NCBI GenBank assembly: GCA_013140395.1
Contig: JABFSY010000103.1
Coordinates: 1-14,125, forward strand
Source of the DNA: Cyclobacteriaceae bacterium
Lineage (GTDB): Bacteria; Bacteroidota; Bacteroidia; Cytophagales; Cyclobacteriaceae
Direction: 5' to 3'
Length of the DNA: 14,125 bases
Every line of letters starts with the position of its first letter. The stretch's first letter is position 1. Below the pieces are notes generated by a model, which saw only the letters and a program-made list of their open reading frames with translations, was not told where the DNA came from and ran no database searches. Made by a program: the position numbers and the translations under genes. This document shows positions 6,068-13,956 of the stretch, in pieces.

Positions 6068-6110
6068 CAACGTGGTTTTCCCCGTATTTTTTACGTGGAA
6101 AACCACGTTG
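6068..6110. repeat. Near-perfect 43-bp palindrome upstream of the kinase gene
   Basis: The 14-bp arms CAACGTGGTTTTCC (6068-6081) and GGAAAACCACGTTG (6097-6110) are exact inverted copies. Inside them, CGTA (6083-6086) pairs with TACG (6092-6095) around a T5 loop, with one mismatch between the stems. Read another way, it contains two 18-bp dyads of 8-2-8 layout, AACGTGGTTTTCCCCGTA (6069-6086) and TACGTGGAAAACCACGTT (6092-6109), with centres 23 bp apart. It lies between two divergently transcribed genes, so a terminator is unlikely. A regulator-binding site or an interspersed hairpin repeat fits better. Confidence 0.8.
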
Positions 6111-6151: not shown

Positions 6152-6994
6152 ATGCCGCATTCAGCCGATTTGTTCACCTATATCTTTTTTTTGCTTTTTG
6201 GTTTTTTGCTGGGAGCCGCCTACGTTTGGCTGCGGCTGAAAAGGCGAGTGAAAACAGCACTCATGCACCGAGCCAATATGGACAACGCGCTTACGTCATT
6301 CAAAAAGAAGTTTGATGAACTGAATAAACAGAGAGAGCAGGACAGGTTTTGGGCAGAAGAACAAGCGGTAGCCCTGGAGCGAAAACGCATTTCGGCTGAT
6401 ATTCACGATGCAGTGGGTGCCTATTTTGCCGCGGCACAGAATAAGCTGGCACTTGTTAGAAGAGACACCATCTCAGACGAGACTTTTCGATTGCTTCAAT
6501 CTGTTAGAAATATGATATTCGGGGCTTCTTATGAACTGAGGGATGCTATCGATCAGATCAAACCACTCGCTTTGGACGTAAACAATTTGTATCAATCTAT
6601 TGATCGATTTCTTGACAAAAACAGTGGGTTGCGAGGCATTGCTTTTGCAGTTAGCCAAAAAGGAACACCCCGTAAAATAGAAGACTTGCTATCCATCACC
6701 ATCTATCGCATCGTGCAAGAGCTGGTAGCCAACGCGATTAAGTACTCCGACTGTTGGCATATGAAATTCACATTGAACTGGGAGCAAAATGGGAAACTCG
6801 TATTTTTTGTGCGTGACGATGGACAGAAATTACTCAGCACCCGCGAAGTGGGGAAATCTGTTACGAGGCGCATAGCGCTGATGGGTGGGCAGATATCAAA
6901 ACTGCCTTTGGATAACAAGGGCTTGCATTTGGAGATCACTTTTCAATTGAAGGAATCATCAGATCAACCCGCTGTTAAAAGCGTAGCGGATTAA
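6152..6994 (+). CDS. Sensor histidine kinase, HisKA_3/NarL-type
   Basis: A 280-residue membrane-anchored kinase, expected to autophosphorylate on His and pass the phosphate to a NarL/FixJ regulator, probably the one encoded next to it. One transmembrane helix lies at about residues 8-27, with almost no periplasmic domain, followed by a charged coiled-coil-like linker (about 33-75). The HisKA_3 dimerisation box is ERKRISADIHDAVG with H85 as the phospho-acceptor. The ATPase domain shows the N-box ELVANAIKYS (E190, N194) and a DDG box (222-224). The second glycine-rich box is weak. With so small a sensory region, the signal may be membrane state or a partner protein rather than a soluble ligand. 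The last 36 bp overlap the end of the response regulator gene on the opposite strand. Confidence 0.9.
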   Translation: MPHSADLFTYIFFLLFGFLLGAAYVWLRLKRRVKTALMHRANMDNALTSFKKKFDELNKQREQDRFWAEEQAVALERKRISADIHDAVGAYFAAAQNKLALVRRDTISDETFRLLQSVRNMIFGASYELRDAIDQIKPLALDVNNLYQSIDRFLDKNSGLRGIAFAVSQKGTPRKIEDLLSITIYRIVQELVANAIKYSDCWHMKFTLNWEQNGKLVFFVRDDGQKLLSTREVGKSVTRRIALMGGQISKLPLDNKGLHLEITFQLKESSDQPAVKSVAD

Positions 6995-7591
6995 CTCATC
7001 AGTATTTTTGCTGCCGGTTTTCTTCAGTAAATTTTGCCGATAGCTATTGATGGTATTTTCACCCAAGTGCAGGAGTTCAGCTATTTCTTTGCTGGATTTC
7101 CCCTCTGAAATGTGCCTAATGATGTTTCGTTCATTTTCACCCAGCGGCAATTTGTGAATGGGTTTTTCACCCAGTTGGCCTTCCACCAACTCACGTACAG
7201 AGCGCGAAAGCCATTTGCCCGTTGCCCATACTTGTTCTACCACCTCGCAAATGTCATCGGTTTCGCCTTTGAATAGGATCGAGTTAACTCCTTGATGCAA
7301 GAAGTGGAGGATCATATCTTTGGCCACAAACTGCGTGTAAATGATCACTTTCGTAGCCGGATATTGTTTTTTAATAGCAGGAAAGGCACCGTAAGCATCT
7401 AGTGTCGGCATAGACACATCTAGGAAAAGAATATCTATCGGATGTTGCCCGAGTATGGCCAAGGCTTCTTGCCCTGTGCGCGCAGTATAAAACTTGGCAG
7501 TTGTGAACTCCTGTTCTAATACCTCTTTTAGCCCCACTGCCACAATAGTGTGGTCATCGGCTAACAAGAAAGAAGTGGGCTTATTCTTCAT
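6959..7591 (-). CDS. Response regulator, NarL/FixJ (LuxR-HTH) family
   Basis: A 210-residue DNA-binding regulator. The receiver domain (about 5-120) has the acidic pair D12/D13 in LLADDH, the phospho-acceptor D58 in ILFLDVSMP, T86 in IIYTQ and K108 in ILFKGE, so all switch residues are present. The C-terminal LuxR-type helix-turn-helix (about 145-210) contains ISEGKSSKEIAELLHLGENTINSYRQNLLKK. It overlaps the kinase gene by 36 bp, tail to tail, and faces away from the peptide 1 gene. The intergenic region between the regulator and peptide 1 contains two 18-bp dyads of the size NarL-type proteins bind. The same pair recurs upstream of peptide 3. I infer that this protein binds them and may also control its own gene. 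Confidence 0.92.
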   Translation of the reverse strand: MKNKPTSFLLADDHTIVAVGLKEVLEQEFTTAKFYTARTGQEALAILGQHPIDILFLDVSMPTLDAYGAFPAIKKQYPATKVIIYTQFVAKDMILHFLHQGVNSILFKGETDDICEVVEQVWATGKWLSRSVRELVEGQLGEKPIHKLPLGENERNIIRHISEGKSSKEIAELLHLGENTINSYRQNLLKKTGSKNTDELIRYAFNSGLI

Positions 7592-7598
7592 TTTTTGC

Positions 7599-7606
7599 CA
7601 AAGATA
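7599..7606 (-). promoter_or_regulatory. Candidate -7 box of the response regulator gene
   Basis: On the minus strand this reads TATCTTTG, a full match to the Bacteroidota -7 consensus TAnnTTTG, ending 7 bp before the ATG at 7591. No good TTTG box is seen 19-21 bp upstream, so the promoter is weak or needs an activator. Its edge overlaps the first dyad (7605-7622), so a regulator bound there would compete with polymerase. A nearly leaderless transcript would result. Confidence 0.3.
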
Positions 7607-7647
7607 CCTTATAAATCAGGTGGTTTTTATACCTGATTTATCAGGTA
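7605..7647. promoter_or_regulatory. Paired 18-bp dyads, copy 1 (candidate operator)
   Basis: Two dyads, TACCTTATAAATCAGGTG (7605-7622) and TACCTGATTTATCAGGTA (7630-7647), lie 25 bp apart centre to centre. The second is a perfect 8-2-8 inverted repeat; the first departs at its outer end and at one inner base. The layout resembles binding sites of NarL-type regulators, and the pair lies directly between the response regulator gene and the peptide 1 gene. The second dyad ends 13 bp before the -33 box of the rightward promoter, a usual activator position. That the neighbouring regulator binds here is inference. Confidence 0.7.
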
Positions 7648-7660
7648 TTTTAGGTTTTGA

Positions 7661-7721
7661 TTTGGAAATTACTCCACGCTACCAATACTTTCACAACAAG
7701 GTTTCCGGCCGGGACTGAAAA
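7661..7721 (+). promoter_or_regulatory. Promoter and conserved leader of peptide 1 operon
   Basis: TTTG (7661-7664) and TACTTTCA (7686-7693) are separated by 21 bp, matching the spacing of Bacteroidota promoters, although the -7 box is imperfect (TTCA in place of TTTG). The same boxes at the same spacing occur upstream of peptide 3. The sequence after the -7 box (7694-7721), which would form the start of the transcript, is nearly identical in both copies, with three differences in 28 positions. It contains the self-complementary CCGGCCGG (7705-7712). Its conservation beyond the promoter suggests a role in the RNA or as a further binding site. Confidence 0.65.
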
Positions 7722-7748
7722 ATGATTTTTAACTTTAAATATTTGAAA

Positions 7749-7892
7749 ATGGATAAAAATGATTTAGCGCGTTTTGCAGTGCAGGAGTTAAATGACTCCG
7801 AGCAAATGCAAACTGGCGGGGGCGGCTGGTTCGGCAAACTTGTGTTAGGTTTTTTGGAATGGTTGTCCGAGCTCCGCGTTGTATTTATTTAA
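7749..7892 (+). CDS. Double-glycine-leader peptide 1 (47 aa)
   Basis: A short gene directly behind the copy 1 promoter. The leader is MDKNDLARFAVQELNDSEQM then QTGG, with cleavage expected after G24. The core is about 23 residues, GGWFGKLVLGFLEWLSELRV then VFI, aromatic, hydrophobic and possibly amphipathic, with no Cys. The VQEL block 11-14 residues before the cleavage point recurs as VQEL or VAEL in peptides 2 and 3. An in-frame ATG at 7722 would add nine residues. I prefer 7749 because its distance from the conserved leader (about 30 bp) matches that of peptide 3. The product could be a bacteriocin or a signalling peptide exported by the C39 transporter at 10787-12967. No modifying enzyme is nearby. 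Peptide 2 follows 79 bp later, probably on the same transcript. Confidence 0.7.
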   Translation: MDKNDLARFAVQELNDSEQMQTGGGGWFGKLVLGFLEWLSELRVVFI

Positions 7893-7971
7893 CGTAAGTG
7901 ATTATTTGTTTTAGGCAATTAAAAAGAAAACTGCGCCAAACAGATTTTTGGTAAAATTAAACTAAACAGCT

Positions 7972-8145
7972 ATGAATACTTTAGAAATGAGAACGATTGG
8001 AGTTCAGGAACTCAATTTAAATGAAATGCTAGAAATTGAAGGTGGTAAGAGGTTTTGGGACACTTTTTGTGGTAAATTAGTTTCAGCCTTTTGCATGGCT
8101 TTTGTAGCCGCTCTTGGTGCCGCTTTGGCAGATGAAGTCATTTGA
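7972..8145 (+). CDS. Double-glycine-leader peptide 2 (57 aa)
   Basis: A second precursor, 79 bp after peptide 1 and before a strong terminator. The leader MNTLEMRTIGVQELNLNEML then EIEGG fits the double-glycine type, with Leu and Glu at the usual positions and cleavage after G25. The core of 32 residues begins KRFWDTFCGKLVSAFCMAF and continues with an Ala/Val-rich helix-like stretch that ends ADEVI. Two cysteines (C33, C41) eight residues apart could form a disulfide. The core has mixed charge and a hydrophobic centre, like class II bacteriocins, but I see no specific bacteriocin motif. It has no copy of the dyad module of its own, so it probably depends on the peptide 1 promoter. An internal ATG at codon 6 is possible as a start, but the longer leader aligns with peptide 3. 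Confidence 0.72.
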   Translation: MNTLEMRTIGVQELNLNEMLEIEGGKRFWDTFCGKLVSAFCMAFVAALGAALADEVI

Positions 8146-8163
8146 TCGAATTTGAGGTTTCTC

Positions 8164-8200
8164 CCTAGAGGTTGTTTGTACAAACAGCCTCTAGGTTTTC
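8164..8200 (+). terminator. Rho-independent terminator after peptide 2
   Basis: CCTAGAGG (8164-8171) pairs with CCTCTAGG (8188-8195), and after one mismatch TGTTTG pairs with CAAACA around a TA centre. TTTTC follows at once. The T-tract is on the + side only, so it ends the peptide 1-peptide 2 transcript. Confidence 0.85.
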
Positions 8201-8236
8201 TATATACAAGTGTTTGAATTAAGAAATCGCTGGAAC

Positions 8237-9418
8237 ATGATCTCAATAAAAAAATCTGCGGCTATTCTAATCGTGTTTCTATGTCATCATTCTGAGGCTC
8301 AGTCCATATTTGGAAAAATCAAAGACAAAGAAACGCACCAGCCAATTCAATATGCCCACATCTCGGTAAGGGATGCTATCACTGGGACGATCTCAAATTC
8401 AGATGGAGCGTTTAGTTTAACAATAGGGAAGATTGGTGATCTAGATTCACTAAGAATTTCTCACGTTGGCTATGCAACCGCAACTGTTTGTCGAAAGGAT
8501 TTAAAGGAGAATGAAGAAAATATACTAAGTCTTATACCAATCGCTGTTTCGCTTAACGAAGTAGTAATTAGAGGAAAAGATCCTTTTGACTATTTTTTGG
8601 ATGCGGTAGCATTAAACAAGTCGAAAATTGAATATCCGTTTTCTACAAGTGCATATTTCAGGGAAATGGTAAAAGACAATGATGAGTGCAGTAAATATTC
8701 AGATGCCCTCCTGACTATCAACTATCTGGAGAATAAGGAGGATATGATTGTTGGCGTTGATCAGGCAAGGGTAGTGAAATTACCAAAAGAATCGGATGAT
8801 ATTCTTCTAACAACATCGCCAATTGAAGTTGAGAGGCTTTTTAAGTATCAGTATCTTACTTTATTGGATCGCTTTCAAGGTGGGAACAAGCGAGATTATA
8901 ATTACTTAGTTAATGGGTTTGCTGGACAGTCGAACACATATCGCCTTAACATCAGCCCTAACAGATCAGCCTTGAAAAATGAAATTCTATTTTCGGGGGA
9001 ATTAATAGTAGAAGATGACTATATCAAAAATATAACTATTCGAATGGACTCCACCAGCAGATGGAAAAAATCACTTTTAGGGGCAACCATTGAGATTGCA
9101 TATATGGAAGTAGCGCTTTCATTTAAACGTGTTGGCGGTAGTAATTACCTTTCGTTCGCGAAAAACTATGTAAACACTATCTACACTCATAAAAGAAGCA
9201 TACAAAATAACGAGTATCAAAGTGAGTTTATTGTTTTGGCTGTCAATTTGCATCAACAGATGCCAATCGAAAAAAGGCAGCGCCTTAAAACAAAAACTTT
9301 GTATAAACACGGAGACAATCATATAAGCAATTTTTGGGAGGGTATCAACATCCCAATTTATTCCAAGAGAGAGACCGATATAATTGAAAAATTAAAGGCT
9401 AAACAATTATTAGAGTGA
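8237..9418 (+). CDS. Exported CarboxypepD_reg-like domain protein
   Basis: A 393-residue protein from the ATG at 8237. A GTG at 8210 would add nine residues ahead of the signal peptide and is less likely. The signal peptide (KKSAAILIVFLCHHSEAQ) precedes a carboxypeptidase-regulatory-like beta-sandwich (about residues 22-110). It shows IFGKIKDKETHQPIQYAHIS, a GTISNSDGAFSL block, and the VGYAT and SLNEVVIRG ends typical of TonB-dependent-receptor-like and DUF5686-like proteins. The remaining ~280 residues have no family I can name and contain no catalytic motif I can see; their beta-rich look suggests a periplasmic or surface protein. It lies between the peptide genes and their exporter, after a terminator, so it needs its own promoter. 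It is visibly richer in A+T than the exporter genes (judged by eye). A role in peptide binding or immunity is possible but unproven. Confidence 0.75.
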   Translation: MISIKKSAAILIVFLCHHSEAQSIFGKIKDKETHQPIQYAHISVRDAITGTISNSDGAFSLTIGKIGDLDSLRISHVGYATATVCRKDLKENEENILSLIPIAVSLNEVVIRGKDPFDYFLDAVALNKSKIEYPFSTSAYFREMVKDNDECSKYSDALLTINYLENKEDMIVGVDQARVVKLPKESDDILLTTSPIEVERLFKYQYLTLLDRFQGGNKRDYNYLVNGFAGQSNTYRLNISPNRSALKNEILFSGELIVEDDYIKNITIRMDSTSRWKKSLLGATIEIAYMEVALSFKRVGGSNYLSFAKNYVNTIYTHKRSIQNNEYQSEFIVLAVNLHQQMPIEKRQRLKTKTLYKHGDNHISNFWEGINIPIYSKRETDIIEKLKAKQLLE

Positions 9419-9513
9419 TAGATGATTGATTCAGTTTGCTTGTCAGTAATTTTTGGTGAACTGAGTAAAATTGATACTTATTCAAGTAATCCATTAAAAT
9501 TGGTAACGAGCGG

Positions 9514-9552
9514 AGCTATGGCCTCTAGCTAGCGCAAGCGTCCGCTTGTGCT
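9514..9552. repeat. REP-like hairpin element
   Basis: AGCGCAAGCG (9531-9540) and CGCTTGTGCT (9543-9552) form a 10-bp stem with one G-T pair and a 2-base loop. Just before it, AGCTA and TAGCT form a smaller stem around TGGCCTC. Two adjacent hairpins and a marked GC-rich composition within an AT-rich gap are typical of REP-type repeats moved by RAYT transposases. I see no second copy in this window, so the repeat nature is inferred. No T-tract follows, which argues against a terminator. The rest of the 9419-9579 gap shows nothing else that I can identify. Confidence 0.5.
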
Positions 9553-9579
9553 TCGAAAGTTTGATCAATTAAAACAAAG

Positions 9580-10716
9580 ATGTTCCCTGAAAACACTTAC
9601 TTCCCCGCCTATACCCGCACAGCTATCATTTACATCGGCTGCATTGTCTGCTGCTTTATTGCGTTGGCTGCCATGCCCTATTTAAAAACAGATGTCAGTG
9701 TGCGCTCTTCGGCATTGATACGCCCAGCCGCTGAGGTGAGCGTAATCCGTTGCATAGCTTCGGGGAGGATAAAGGAAGCCTATACCGCAGAAAATAAAAA
9801 AGTAAAGGGGGGCGAGTTATTGTATGTTATTGAGTCAGAGACCCTCAATGAGCAGGAACATTTTTTCCAGGAGAAGATAGTACTAAAGCAATCATTGATG
9901 CAAGATGTCGAGCTGGCAATCGGAGCTTCAAAAATACCTCTACCTACAAAACCAATTTTTAATAGTGCAGTCTACCAGCAAAGCTATTTTACGTATCAAC
10001 AAAAGTTAATCGAAGCACAAACGGTTTACAACAAGGCCAAGCAAGCACATGACCGCCAATTAAAACTTTACCAAGAAAAAGTAATTGCAGCTATGGAGTT
10101 TGAAAATTTTCAGTTTGAGCTGAAAAAGGCAGATGATGCCATTGCCCAACTGAAAGAAACGCAGCGCAGCCAATGGCAGAGTGAATTGAAAACTTTGCAG
10201 GAGGAAAAGAATGAGTTGGAGAGCCAGCTCGTACGCATACAAAAAGAAAAAGCCCTGCTTACCATCAAAGTACCGGTGAGCGGCACGCTGCAAAACTTAA
10301 CGGGCGTATATGTGGGTAGTAATGTTTTCGCCAACCAAGAGTTAGGCCAAATTTCACCTGATACCAGCATGCTCGTGATCGCTTATGTGCAGCCAAACGA
10401 TATTGGTTTCATTAAAAAAGATATGAACGTGCGCCTGCAAGTGGATGCGTTTAACTACAATCAATGGGGAATGGCCACCGGCAAAGTCATCGCTGTGCCA
10501 CAAGATATTAAGCTCATTGACAACAAACCTGTTTTTGAGGTGCGTTGCTCACTGGACAAAGATTTCCTTCAATTGAAAGGTGGCTATAAAGGGTTTTTGA
10601 AAAAAGGAATGACCCTGCAAGCACGGTTTATAGTTACCGAGCGCAGCTTGTGGCAGTTGCTGTATGATAAAGTAGATGATTGGGTAAACCCAAATATAGA
10701 CGTAAGACAGAAGTAG
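9580..10716 (+). CDS. HlyD-family periplasmic adaptor (membrane fusion protein) for peptide export
   Basis: A 378-residue adaptor that would link the inner-membrane ABC exporter to an outer-membrane channel. After a short cytosolic start, one transmembrane helix spans about residues 13-35. A lipoyl-type half-motif follows (about 45-90, with SGRIKEAYTAENKKVKGGELLYVIE). A long charged coiled coil (about 120-230) leads to the second half, KVPVSGTLQNLTGVYVGSNVFA. A beta-barrel segment (about 260-350) comes next. The C-terminus RSLWQLLYDKVDDWVNP is of a kind I associate with adaptors of C39 peptide exporters in this phylum. The C39 exporter gene starts 70 bp downstream on the same strand. No outer-membrane channel gene is seen here, so one encoded elsewhere must be used. 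Confidence 0.88.
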   Translation: MFPENTYFPAYTRTAIIYIGCIVCCFIALAAMPYLKTDVSVRSSALIRPAAEVSVIRCIASGRIKEAYTAENKKVKGGELLYVIESETLNEQEHFFQEKIVLKQSLMQDVELAIGASKIPLPTKPIFNSAVYQQSYFTYQQKLIEAQTVYNKAKQAHDRQLKLYQEKVIAAMEFENFQFELKKADDAIAQLKETQRSQWQSELKTLQEEKNELESQLVRIQKEKALLTIKVPVSGTLQNLTGVYVGSNVFANQELGQISPDTSMLVIAYVQPNDIGFIKKDMNVRLQVDAFNYNQWGMATGKVIAVPQDIKLIDNKPVFEVRCSLDKDFLQLKGGYKGFLKKGMTLQARFIVTERSLWQLLYDKVDDWVNPNIDVRQK

Positions 10717-10786
10717 TAAGACATTAGACAGCCCACCGCGACAGAATCTTGGATCATATGTCTAACATCTTGAGTCTTTTATAGCC

Positions 10787-12967
10787 ATGAAAAAGATACC
10801 CAAAATAAAACAACGCGACATCACCGACTGCGGTGCAGCTTGCCTTGCATCTATTGCCGCGCATTACGAATTGCAGCTACCTGTAGCACGCATTCGTCAG
10901 TTGGCATCGACCGATAAAAAGGGAACGAATGTACTCGGAATGATCGAGGCTGCGGAGAAGCTTGGGTTTCAAGCCAAGGGAGTGAAAGGGCCTTTTGAAA
11001 GTTTGTTTAAAATACCAAAGCCCGCCATTGCGCATGTCATCATCAAAGAAGTGCTGCACCACTATGTTGTCATCTACGATGCCACGCCAAAATATATTGA
11101 AGTAATGGATCCAGGCGATGGTCAGGTACACAAGCACACGCATGAGGAATTTAAAAAAATATGGACGGGTGTTTTGATTCTTTTATTGCCGGGCGAATCT
11201 TTTCAAAAAGGTGATAAGAAAGAGGCGATGACCTCTCGTTTTTGGCGATTGGTACATCCTCACAGAAGTGTTATGATTCAGGCACTATTTGGTGCGCTGG
11301 TCTATACTATTTTAGGTCTTTCCACTTCTATTTATGTGCAGAAGATTGTAGACTATGTGTTGGTAGATGGCAATAGAAATTTGTTGAATCTGATGAGTAT
11401 TGCGATGGTGGCCTTGCTGCTCTTATCCATTTTTATTGGCTACACCAAAAGTCTATTCACGGTGCAAACCGGGCAAATGATCGATTCCCGATTAATACTC
11501 GGCTACTACAAACATTTGCTCAAACTTCCACAGCAATTTTTTGATACGATGCGCGTGGGTGAAATACTTTCGCGCATCAACGATGCGGTGAAGATCAGGG
11601 CGTTCATCAACGATGTATCTATCAACCTGGCTGTTAACTTTTTCATGATCGTGTTCTCGTTCGCGCTCATGTTCACCTACTATTGGAAATTGGCGGTTGT
11701 TATTTTATTGGTGATCCCGTTCTATTCCATCATTTACTACATCACTAATCGGTTGAACAAAAAGGCAGAACGCAAATTGATGGAGAACTCTGCGGAGTTG
11801 GAATCGCAACTGGTGGAATCGCTCAATTCTGTAAGCACCATCAAGAGCTTCGGGTTGGAACAACATGCCAACATAAAAACGGAAGATAAATTCTATAATC
11901 TGTTGCAGACTGTTTATAAGTCCGGATTGAATAATTTATTTTCCAATTTTTCTACCGAGTTTATTTCGAGGCTATTCACGATCATTTTACTTTGGGTGGG
12001 TGCAGGCTTTGTGTTGGATAGTCAGATCACACCCGGTGAGTTGTTATCATTCTATGCATTGATAGGCTATTTCACCGGTCCGGTCAGTAGCTTAATAGGT
12101 ATGAATAAAACCATACAGAATGCAATGATTGCGGCAGATCGTTTGTTTGAGATCATGGACTTAGAGCGAGAAAGCGATGAAAATAAAGTGACTCTAACTC
12201 GTGAAATGGTTGGAGATATTGAATTTAAGAATGTAGCATTTCGCTATGGTTCACGAGTCACCGTGTTTCAAGATTTCAATCTCGTTGTGCCAAAGGGAAA
12301 AGTAACTGCCTTGGTCGGGGAGAGTGGTTCCGGAAAATCTACATTAATTAATATTCTGCAAAATCTGTATCCTATTTTGTCCGGCAGTATCCGCCTTGGC
12401 GAATATGATTTGAAATATATTGAGAATAACTCATTGCGGCACTTGGTTGGTGTAGTGCCCCAAAAGGTAGATCTCTTTGCCGGAAATGTACTCGATAACA
12501 TTGCGGTTGGTGATTATCAACCTGATATGAAAAAGATCATTTCCATTTGCACTTCTTTGGGTATTATGGAGTTTATTGAAAAACTACCAGCGGGGTTCAA
12601 CACCTATTTGGGCGAGAACGGAGCTACATTGTCAGGTGGACAAAAGCAACGGATTGCTATCGCACGGGCGCTTTACCGCGACCCGGAAGTATTGATACTA
12701 GATGAAGCTACATCGGCCTTGGACTCTGCCTCTGAGCAATATGTGCATCGCATGGTGGAATGGATGCGAGAGAATGAAAAGACAGTTATTTTAATCGCCC
12801 ACCGCCTCAGCTCGGTTTTGCGAGCTGATAAAATTGTTGTGCTATCTCAAGGTGCAGTGGTAGAAGAAGGACACCACGGTCAACTGATCAGCAATCGAAA
12901 GCAATATTATGAGCTGTGGCGGCAGCAGTTTCCAATGATGGAGGAAAAAGCGTACGCCAATACCTGA
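10787..12967 (+). CDS. Peptidase C39-containing ABC exporter (PCAT), double-glycine peptide processing
   Basis: A 726-residue exporter that cuts precursor peptides after the double glycine and moves the core across the inner membrane. The N-terminal C39 protease (about 1-130) has C15 in ITDCGAACL, H92 in LHHYVVIYD and D108 in MDPGDG, so the catalytic set is complete. The transmembrane domain covers about 160-440. The nucleotide-binding domain (about 475-715) has Walker A GESGSGKS with K517, signature LSGGQ (615-619), Walker B ending D639-E640, and the switch His H672 in LIAHRLSS. The three double-glycine peptides in the window are its likely substrates, and the HlyD gene 70 bp upstream its partner. 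The TGA stop (12965-12967) lies inside the first dyad of regulatory copy 2, so the end of this gene is fused to the control region of peptide 3. Confidence 0.95.
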   Translation: MKKIPKIKQRDITDCGAACLASIAAHYELQLPVARIRQLASTDKKGTNVLGMIEAAEKLGFQAKGVKGPFESLFKIPKPAIAHVIIKEVLHHYVVIYDATPKYIEVMDPGDGQVHKHTHEEFKKIWTGVLILLLPGESFQKGDKKEAMTSRFWRLVHPHRSVMIQALFGALVYTILGLSTSIYVQKIVDYVLVDGNRNLLNLMSIAMVALLLLSIFIGYTKSLFTVQTGQMIDSRLILGYYKHLLKLPQQFFDTMRVGEILSRINDAVKIRAFINDVSINLAVNFFMIVFSFALMFTYYWKLAVVILLVIPFYSIIYYITNRLNKKAERKLMENSAELESQLVESLNSVSTIKSFGLEQHANIKTEDKFYNLLQTVYKSGLNNLFSNFSTEFISRLFTIILLWVGAGFVLDSQITPGELLSFYALIGYFTGPVSSLIGMNKTIQNAMIAADRLFEIMDLERESDENKVTLTREMVGDIEFKNVAFRYGSRVTVFQDFNLVVPKGKVTALVGESGSGKSTLINILQNLYPILSGSIRLGEYDLKYIENNSLRHLVGVVPQKVDLFAGNVLDNIAVGDYQPDMKKIISICTSLGIMEFIEKLPAGFNTYLGENGATLSGGQKQRIAIARALYRDPEVLILDEATSALDSASEQYVHRMVEWMRENEKTVILIAHRLSSVLRADKIVVLSQGAVVEEGHHGQLISNRKQYYELWRQQFPMMEEKAYANT

Positions 12968-13003
12968 TAAATCAGGTGGTTTTGATACCTGATTTATCAG
13001 GTA
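12961..13003. promoter_or_regulatory. Paired 18-bp dyads, copy 2 (candidate operator)
   Basis: TACCTGATAAATCAGGTG (12961-12978) and TACCTGATTTATCAGGTA (12986-13003) repeat the copy 1 pair with the same 25-bp spacing and only two base differences across the 43 bp. The first is a near-perfect 8-2-8 inverted repeat and the second is perfect. The stop codon of the exporter lies in the first dyad. As hairpins they could also weaken read-through from the exporter gene, but in copy 1 the same sequence has no upstream gene in that direction, so a DNA-binding role is favoured. Confidence 0.7.
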
Positions 13004-13016
13004 TTTCAAGTTTTGG

Positions 13017-13077
13017 TTTGGAAAAATTAGGTCACTATTGATACTTTCACCACAAGGCTTCCGGCCGGGGCTGAAAA
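13017..13077 (+). promoter_or_regulatory. Promoter and conserved leader of peptide 3
   Basis: TTTG (13017-13020) and TACTTTCA (13042-13049) keep the 21-bp gap and the 13-bp distance from the dyads found in copy 1, although 12 of the 20 bases just after the -33 TTTG differ. The start of the presumed transcript (13050-13077) again holds CCGGCCGG and CTGAAAA. The ATG of peptide 3 lies 25 bp further on. Confidence 0.65.
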
Positions 13078-13102: not shown

Positions 13103-13291
13103 ATGAGAACCTTAGAATTAGAAAAAATGAATGTTGCAGAGTTGTCATTAGCCGAGGCGGGAAAAACTGAGGGCGGTGGCATTCCAGAACTTTACTATCT
13201 GGCAAAAGCTCTAGCTGCTGTATTGGATTACTTTTATCCCAAGCCTGCCGGTCCTAGTCCTTGGGCTGGTTGTGAAGAGCCGCCCTATTGA
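13103..13291 (+). CDS. Double-glycine-leader peptide 3 (62 aa)
   Basis: The leader MRTLELEKMNVAELSLAEAG then KTEGG aligns with that of peptide 2 (same length, VAEL in place of VQEL at positions 11-14, Glu before GG). Cleavage is expected after G25. The core of 37 residues begins GIPELYYLAKALAAVLDYFY, a helix-prone aromatic stretch, and ends in a proline-rich tail (PKPAGPSPWAGCEEPPY) with one Cys (C57) and several acidic residues. It differs clearly from the cores of peptides 1 and 2, so the three share leader and control but not sequence. It is driven by module copy 2, closed by a terminator, and followed by a CPBP protease. It might be a bacteriocin, a pheromone or a substrate for an unseen maturation step. 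Confidence 0.75.
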   Translation: MRTLELEKMNVAELSLAEAGKTEGGGIPELYYLAKALAAVLDYFYPKPAGPSPWAGCEEPPY

Positions 13292-13377: not shown

Positions 13378-13956
13378 ATGTTAGTAACAACAATCCTAGA
13401 GTTTTTTTCTTTTCTAAAAAATCCAAGTGTTGATAAGTCTTCTAAAAAAGATTGTTTTTTCAAATTAAGGCATTTTGTACAATTGTTTCTGCTTGAATTG
13501 CCTTTTGTCGGCTTCCTCCTATTGTTAATGTTTCTTCTTAATGAGTACGGATTTATCAGAGAGTCAGCTGATCCGCTTCGTGAACTCCGCGGAATAATCA
13601 ATCTACACGGGTACACTTTTTTTCTATTGTTAGTAGTCATCATACTGCCTTTTTGTGAAGAACTTGTCTTTAGATCGTACCTTACTTGGCCGAGATTTTT
13701 TAAGCAAAAATTTCTTATAGATCATTTTGGCTGGATTTTTTATGCGTCTGCGGTTTTGTTTGCATTGGTTCATATTTCAAATTATCCCGATGAAGAAATA
13801 AATCAGTTCATACCGATTTTAATATCTCCACAATTTATTACCGGCCTATTTGCAGGTTATTTACGGGTTAAATTTGGTCTACTATGGGGGTTTTTATTTC
13901 ACGCGTTACACAATTTGTTTCTTTTGATTGTGTTAATAGCTTTTGGAGGCTTGTAG
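13378..13956 (+). CDS. CPBP-family intramembrane metalloprotease (Abi-like)
   Basis: A 192-residue, strongly hydrophobic protein with about five or six membrane segments. All CPBP (PF02517) catalytic motifs are intact: EExxFR as E94-E95-x-x-x-R99 in FCEELVFRSYL, FALVH with H132, and HALHN with H175 and N179. Members of this family act as bacteriocin self-immunity proteins (as in plantaricin loci) or as processing proteases. Its place after a double-glycine peptide suggests one of these roles here. It begins 17 bp after the T-run of the peptide 3 terminator, so expression needs read-through or its own start site. The gene is visibly richer in A+T than the exporter genes (judged by eye), which may point to a different history. 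Confidence 0.88.
   Translation: MLVTTILEFFSFLKNPSVDKSSKKDCFFKLRHFVQLFLLELPFVGFLLLLMFLLNEYGFIRESADPLRELRGIINLHGYTFFLLLVVIILPFCEELVFRSYLTWPRFFKQKFLIDHFGWIFYASAVLFALVHISNYPDEEINQFIPILISPQFITGLFAGYLRVKFGLLWGFLFHALHNLFLLIVLIAFGGL

Follow-up and report, generated by a model that had tools for sequence, protein, structure and literature searches.

The DNA analysed here is a 14,125-nucleotide (nt) contig from a Cyclobacteriaceae bacterium (JABFSY010000103.1, assembly GCA_013140395.1; below, the window). It is one of 532 contigs in a draft genome of 3.03 Mb that is 81% complete (G000; other genomes carry handles of the same kind). The window encodes a peptidase-containing ATP-binding cassette transporter (PCAT), an HlyD-type secretion adaptor and three short open reading frames (ORFs) with double-glycine leaders (the glycine pairs recognized by eye). 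This combination of a C39 peptidase transporter, an HlyD adaptor and double-glycine ORFs in one cluster is what the locus shares with PCAT/HlyD export systems (TIGR01193, Peptidase_C39). It differs from them in two respects: it additionally has a two-component system, comprising a HisKA_3 histidine kinase and a NarL/LuxR-type response regulator (RR); and none of its three peptides has an above-cut-off match in Pfam or NCBIfam. A CPBP-type protease and a CarboxypepD_reg-domain protein are also encoded. Our subject is a 117-bp module that stands twice in this cluster, before peptide 1 and before peptide 3, and which we read as a candidate control region made up of two dyads, a promoter and a 21-nt leader (Table 1).

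Table 1. Features of the window discussed in the text
Feature	Position	Strand	Remarks
HisKA_3 histidine kinase	6152..6994	+	Pfam; tail to tail with the RR gene
NarL/LuxR-type RR	6959..7591	-	Pfam Response_reg and GerE; proposed dyad binder
Module copy 1 (dyads, promoter, leader)	7605..7721	+	Separates peptide 1 from the divergent RR gene; matches copy 2 at 97/117
Distal dyad, copy 1, ACCTTATAAATCAGGT	7606..7621		Centre -84.5 from predicted start 7698
Proximal dyad, copy 1, ACCTGATTTATCAGGT	7631..7646		Centre -59.5
-33 TTTG, copy 1	7661..7664	+	
-7 box TACTTTCA, copy 1	7686..7693	+	Fits 4/6 fixed positions of TAnnTTTG
5'-end leader hairpin, copy 1	7698..7718	+	7698, predicted transcription start
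Double-glycine peptide 1	7749..7892	+	Likely start codon 7749
Double-glycine peptide 2	7972..8145	+	Sub-threshold Bacteriocin_IIc match
HlyD-type secretion adaptor	9580..10716	+	HlyD models
PCAT	10787..12967	+	TIGR01193, 539.9 bits (cut-off 523.85); Peptidase_C39 (PF03412)
Module copy 2	12961..13077	+	Between transporter gene and peptide 3
Distal dyad, copy 2	12962..12977		
Proximal dyad, copy 2	12987..13002		
-7 box TACTTTCA, copy 2	13042..13049	+	
5'-end leader hairpin, copy 2	13054..13074	+	13054, predicted transcription start
Double-glycine peptide 3	13103..13291	+	Double-glycine ORF by eye
CPBP-type intramembrane protease	13378..13956	+	Pfam Rce1-like; after peptide 3

The two copies align without gaps at 97 of 117 bases, and the runner-up among ungapped same-strand 117-mer pairs in the window agrees at 57, confirming a duplication that a first-pass annotation had read from the sequence. 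As that annotation also held, the differences are concentrated after the -33 TTTG: 12 of the 20 fall at offsets 64-79 (window 7669-7684), in the promoter spacer between TTTGG and the TACTTTCA box. The peptide cores likewise look unrelated, with no BLASTP alignment of the two peptides at E≤100 (peptide 1 entered from codon 7752, minus its Met). Similarity breaks off sharply at either end of the module, and the transporter stop codon (12965-12967) falls within the first dyad of copy 2. The whole-genome search that the annotation had called for, run on G000 with the 117 bases, gave eight rows: four in the window and four short, weak ones elsewhere (E at least 0.575). A single-dyad pattern (up to 2 mismatches) occurred at 25 places, four within the window, and the two inspected among the 21 outside it (contigs C355 and C39) are both within long ORFs. 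Module copies found in this incomplete genome number two, both before double-glycine peptides. A mobile repeat is not supported, given this count and the lack of any plasmid match. The idea that the module is a searchable tag holds in part: the full-length 117 bp matched solely the window's own two places in 148 family genomes, whereas the leader alone can be followed across species, as set out below.

Each copy has two dyads, ACCTGA-N4-TCAGGT, whose centres lie 25 bp apart. Read as a 7-2-7 inverted repeat (ACCTGAT-NN-ATCAGGT), three of the four are exact and the fourth has one mismatch. NarL is described as preferring inverted heptamers 2 bp apart (PMC4549865). The likeness to NarL-family operators lies in these inverted 7-bp arms 2 bp apart, upstream of a NarL-type RR gene; compared with the sites of Escherichia coli NarL, the arms are ACCTGAT rather than a TAC-type heptamer, and the window has paired sites at a fixed 25-bp spacing. 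A tandem-dyad pattern (up to 3 mismatches) was found at nine places in seven of 390 family genomes, and the reversed-pattern control gave none. Places in G309, G079 and G270 were set aside as lying inside long ORFs; the six convincing ones are two in the window, two in G330 and one each in G381 and G194. Four of these six are directly upstream of the start of a NarL-type RR gene (window copy 1, G330 copy a, G381 and G194), and the RRs of G330, G381 and G194 are respectively 91%, 42% and 43% identical to that of the window. At E≤1e-40, the RR was found in three of 62 genus genomes, the same three that have the tandem dyad. A domain scan of the window, G381 and G194 RRs, which left out the 91% identical one of G330, placed receiver and GerE domains above cut-offs in the first two, with GerE just below in G194 (22.9 against 23.5). 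By eye, the products of the divergent genes in G381 (a lipoprotein-like protein of 267-277 aa) and G194 (an 87-aa Cys-rich peptide) look secreted. Because the tandem pattern recurs upstream of RR genes that are only 42-43% identical, the dyads are probably the RR's own operator.

A second locus in G381 bears on how far this control might extend. On contig C13 (the RR is on C118), one dyad is followed by 38 nt, a TACTTTTG box and the arms of the hairpin; the gene after them encodes a lipoprotein-like protein of 245 aa whose end is Gly-rich. Since the dyad, promoter and hairpin are found here at a second gene on another contig, a small regulon of the RR is credible. The dyad is the proximal one, the distal one being absent; as the sole dyad at this locus, it hints that the promoter-proximal dyad is the essential site. 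Together with the recurrence beside distant RRs, the locus lends support to the earlier suggestion of a promoter whose upstream activator site is kept by selection. The accompanying suggestion of a small regulon gains credibility from G381, but G000 itself shows just the two copies.

How copy 2 arose can be judged from relatives. The closest transporter in the genus search, that of G347, is 95% identical over residues 3-514 and 89% over 508-721 and has no module behind it; its similarity to the tail of the window transporter gene stops ~24 bp before the first dyad. In G330, copy b carries ~50 nt nearly identical to the start region of its RR gene. The second peptide cassette of that genome (L081:3571-3960) is preceded, by eye, by a fragment of an HlyD-like start as well as the RR start fragment, like a tandem cassette duplication. 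As G347 has no module after its transporter and the G330 cassette fragments fit, recombinational duplication appears better supported than gene conversion between the copies, a possibility that the first-pass annotation had raised. One could go further and suppose that the duplication is merely recent, that the dyads and leader are functionless and that the identity measures age only. The abrupt ends of the homology, the placement of copy 2 where G347 has none and the RR 5'-end fragment in G330 would all suit this, but the differences between the copies would not then be clustered in the promoter spacer, nor would the dyads and their spacing persist at 42-43% RR identity or the leader persist with paired changes across genera. 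We regard it as most improbable.

The TTTG of copy 1 was labelled on the -33 consensus. At leader loci with a readable -7 box, the AAGG that opens the leader lies 3-5 nt after the box. Combined with the span of -12 to -5 given for -7 boxes of Flavobacterium psychrophilum (PMC9723704), this spacing predicts that transcription starts at the first A of AAGG in both copies. By its motifs, the putative promoter is of the Bacteroidota type, with a freely varying spacer. The pattern TAnnTTTS-N4-AAGG had no match in the window, whose boxes deviate from it.

The leader consists of AAGG, complementary arms and usually a terminal C[C/U]GA, with GGCC between the arms in 19 of 20 loci. It was first seen by itself in G137, of the same genus, before two double-glycine peptides and without dyads. 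(A short ORF upstream of the leader in G137, L019:1540-1887, itself ends like a double-glycine leader, AEELKNIKGG.) A leader pattern gave 11 matches in eight of the 62 genus genomes and none when reversed. A covariance model built from eight sequences (R1) gave 17 matches in 13 of these genomes; 16 of them lie before secreted-looking genes, at 15 loci (the G251 rows, two in number, come from overlapping contig ends and were counted once), and seven of the 15 loci were absent from the training set. The remaining match, in G261, was dropped as coding. In the 390 family genomes, a second model (R2) gave 39 rows, of which 21 were accepted as real; these add G277, G367, a second G356 locus, G304 and G074, making 20 loci in 16 genomes. 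Fifteen of the other 18 rows were inspected (all except those of G348 and G361 and the second of G015), and none precedes a double-glycine peptide; that of G212 precedes a long signal-peptide-bearing protein. With a third model (R3) and laxer filters, the 20 loci were separated from the rest: 21 of the 35 rows in 20 genomes, representing the same loci, had E≤0.017, and the next had 0.44. Among the 14 weaker rows, 12 were inspected (leaving the second G381:C13 row and one of G277), and one, the G381:C13 locus, was kept. The G381 leaders are not counted among the 20.

By eye, the genes after the 20 leaders encode 16 double-glycine peptides and four lipoprotein or Sec-type proteins. At cut-off, Pfam recognized none of seven lipoprotein or secreted proteins (those of the four leader loci, two of G381 and one of G194); six of the seven also lacked a match in NCBIfam. 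An ATG lies at +50 to +60 from AAGG in 19 of 20 loci, if for the window, G385 and G137 the second in-frame one is taken; on this spacing, peptide 1 likely starts at 7749 rather than 7722. The first ATG of peptide 1 (7722-7751) directly abuts the leader, and a double ATG occurs likewise in G385. Peptide 2 was searched for a leader hairpin of its own, and none was found. The leader also tends to occur with close relatives of the transporter (at least 69% identity): the 62 genomes, the window included and G381 leaders excluded, divide into 10 with both, four with the leader only, two with the transporter only and 46 with neither (p=5e-7, ignoring relatedness), or 9, 3, 3 and 47 without the two weakest leaders (p=2e-6). 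Transporter relatives in G137, G347, G356 and G268 were found as two pieces, suggesting decay or assembly errors.

In the genomes sampled, the leader was confined to this genus and a few relatives within the family. R3 gave five rows in 390 order genomes (two in the window, one each in G137, G170 and the uninspected G506) and nothing convincing outside, a weak test given that few of the known positives showed up in this sample; the G170 match is inside an ORF. Across 80 PCAT loci (1.43 Mb), six of 10 matches are in known leader loci (E≤1.1e-5), and the other four, uninspected, are weak (E 0.13-5.8; Pedobacter, Flagellimonas, a Flavobacteriaceae isolate and Aquimarina). There was no sign of a general 5'-end hairpin before double-glycine peptides of other Bacteroidota among the six that have an exact TAnnTTTG box (p=0.45). 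A phage origin was also rejected: among viral contigs the leader had a single exact match, which falls inside an ORF of 197 aa on the opposite strand and was taken as chance.

The genes upstream of the leader encode several kinds of regulator. A NarL-type RR with tandem dyads is found in the window and G330, and also in G381, where the leader is degenerate; other NarL-type RRs, with no such tandem dyad, are found in G354, G367 and G385. A short helix-turn-helix protein is upstream in G251, G316a, G318 and G268, with a relative in G356b (HTH_3 at or slightly below cut-off in the two scanned); a different HTH_3 protein is upstream in G316b, and G137 and G277 have there a short ORF that by eye is helix-turn-helix-like but has no Pfam match. 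None was assigned to G312, G338, G356a, G304 or G074. On this distribution, the module is evidently composite: the tandem dyads accompany the RR, and the leader accompanies secreted-peptide genes that have several different regulators. Two further conserved stretches were noted at such loci. G251, G316a, G318 and G268 have a TTAAAAGNGTACANCTTATAAGTGAA-like stretch between the divergent short helix-turn-helix gene and the leader, which may represent a second class of operator; G137 and G277 have a GTCTCAACTAG-type dyad in common upstream of their leaders, near the short ORF.

The aligned leaders suggest that this second component acts as RNA. Across the 20 sequences, 118 of 120 cells are paired, 29 of them as G-U, and three pairs are changed on both sides (10 cells). 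On three measures (covariation score, percentage paired and double-change cells), none of 500 shuffles equalled the alignment; in an earlier 16-sequence alignment, the covariation score was reached by 10 of 500. For 13 distinct stems, 50 of 52 cells are paired against 42.7 on shuffling (p=5e-5; the input was 14 of the 20 leaders, the other six repeating stems already listed). Might the leader instead be a DNA operator, bound over the near-palindrome from +1 to +21 by a second regulator? As DNA, the GGCC core and some of the arms are palindromic, the predicted transcription start is a usual position for a repressor, and the RNA folds poorly in longer context. The G-U pairs, however, break the DNA symmetry, most copies have an extra nucleotide on the 5' side, and the arm sequences vary while their pairing stays. 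For these reasons an RNA element is favoured, and we consider a DNA operator unlikely.

A leader at the very start of the message could also serve as initially transcribed sequence that RNA polymerase or a special sigma factor reads, and not as a structure recognized post-transcriptionally. Its distance from the -7 box, where readable, would fit this, as would a F. psychrophilum variant box, TAnnTTGY, that PMC9723704 ties to another promoter class (G381 has TACTTTGC). Since the conservation extends through the first 21 nt of the transcript and tracks its base pairing, and the -7 boxes of leader loci differ widely, we hold this to be quite improbable.

Stem-loops at the 5' end can protect mRNA, as in the ompA type. 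The proposed hairpin is like these, and like structured 5' leaders in Rfam, in its position, a few nt at most from the predicted 5' end; it differs in its conserved GGCC and flanks and in having been seen in just one gene class and lineage. An Rfam search at E≤1 with sequences from eight sources gave no match at the leader and weak matches elsewhere, some over the dyads. Literature searches, at the level of abstract openings, returned no description of the leader, which is no proof of its absence from print.

Taken together, we favour the module as a composite control region of RR-bound dyads, a weak promoter and a 5' RNA hairpin, with a rough probability of 0.7. The HisKA_3 kinase and NarL-type RR would probably bind both dyads, and the RR would regulate its own divergent gene and activate a weak sigma-A-type promoter starting at the first A of AAGG. 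The transcript would open with the short hairpin, its arms around GGCC, between AAGG and the usual C[C/U]GA. Because it is common to secreted-peptide genes under different regulators, the hairpin is most likely a separate post-transcriptional element, serving either to protect the 5' end or to bind a common factor. Copy 2 would be a duplicate of the module that came to lie at the transporter gene's end, bringing the third peptide under the same control.

Several observations weigh against this reading. The operator claim stands on four RR-adjacent places; G194 carries the dyads yet no hairpin match, and the leader of the RR-adjacent copy in G381 is degenerate. The second G381 locus is a weak match (E 1.33) chosen on inspection, and with 6% estimated contamination in this draft its linkage and origin are not certain. 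The -7 box of the window is a poor match. Close PCATs without a leader occur in G284 and G347, as do PCAT loci without one in Ohtaekwangia koreensis and Chryseosolibacter (72-75% identity). Eight of 500 shuffles reached the count of pairs with changes on both sides, and 246 reached that of pair types; moreover, the same model served to pick the matches and to fit the alignment, and the sequences are related, so that the covariation is inflated. Folded alone, 16 of 20 leaders use both arms, but within 75 nt of message this falls to seven of 20 minimum-energy folds, the rest preferring competing hairpins. The register is also ambiguous, many leaders alone forming an unbulged stem with a 5-nt loop instead of one with a bulge and a GGCC tetraloop. 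Folding while the 5' end exits the polymerase could favour the leader-alone fold.

If the composite reading is right, it provides a concrete operator prediction for an uncharacterized two-component system and suggests one message-start element common to genes under several transcription factors. Secreted-peptide (perhaps bacteriocin-like) genes of these Cytophagales could also be searched for by the short leader, among them genes that Pfam models failed to recognize in this analysis. A bolder proposal, tentative and to our minds rather doubtful, is that the hairpin is the recognition site of a trans-acting factor, a protein or small RNA, that gates toxin-like secreted-peptide messages across double-glycine and Sec/lipoprotein export, whichever transcription factor is in charge. 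Were it true, this factor would be a second, RNA-level switch over plug-in promoters.

Some minor features of these loci may be recorded. Proteins resembling the CPBP-type protease are found, by eye, near the peptides at leader loci of G137, G338 and G268. In the window, an inverted repeat of 19 nt (6068-6110; loop of 5 nt, 95% complementarity) lies upstream of the kinase gene and may be a terminator or an operator, and a palindromic inverted repeat followed by T-rich sequence (8164-8195), 3' of peptide 2, is terminator-like.

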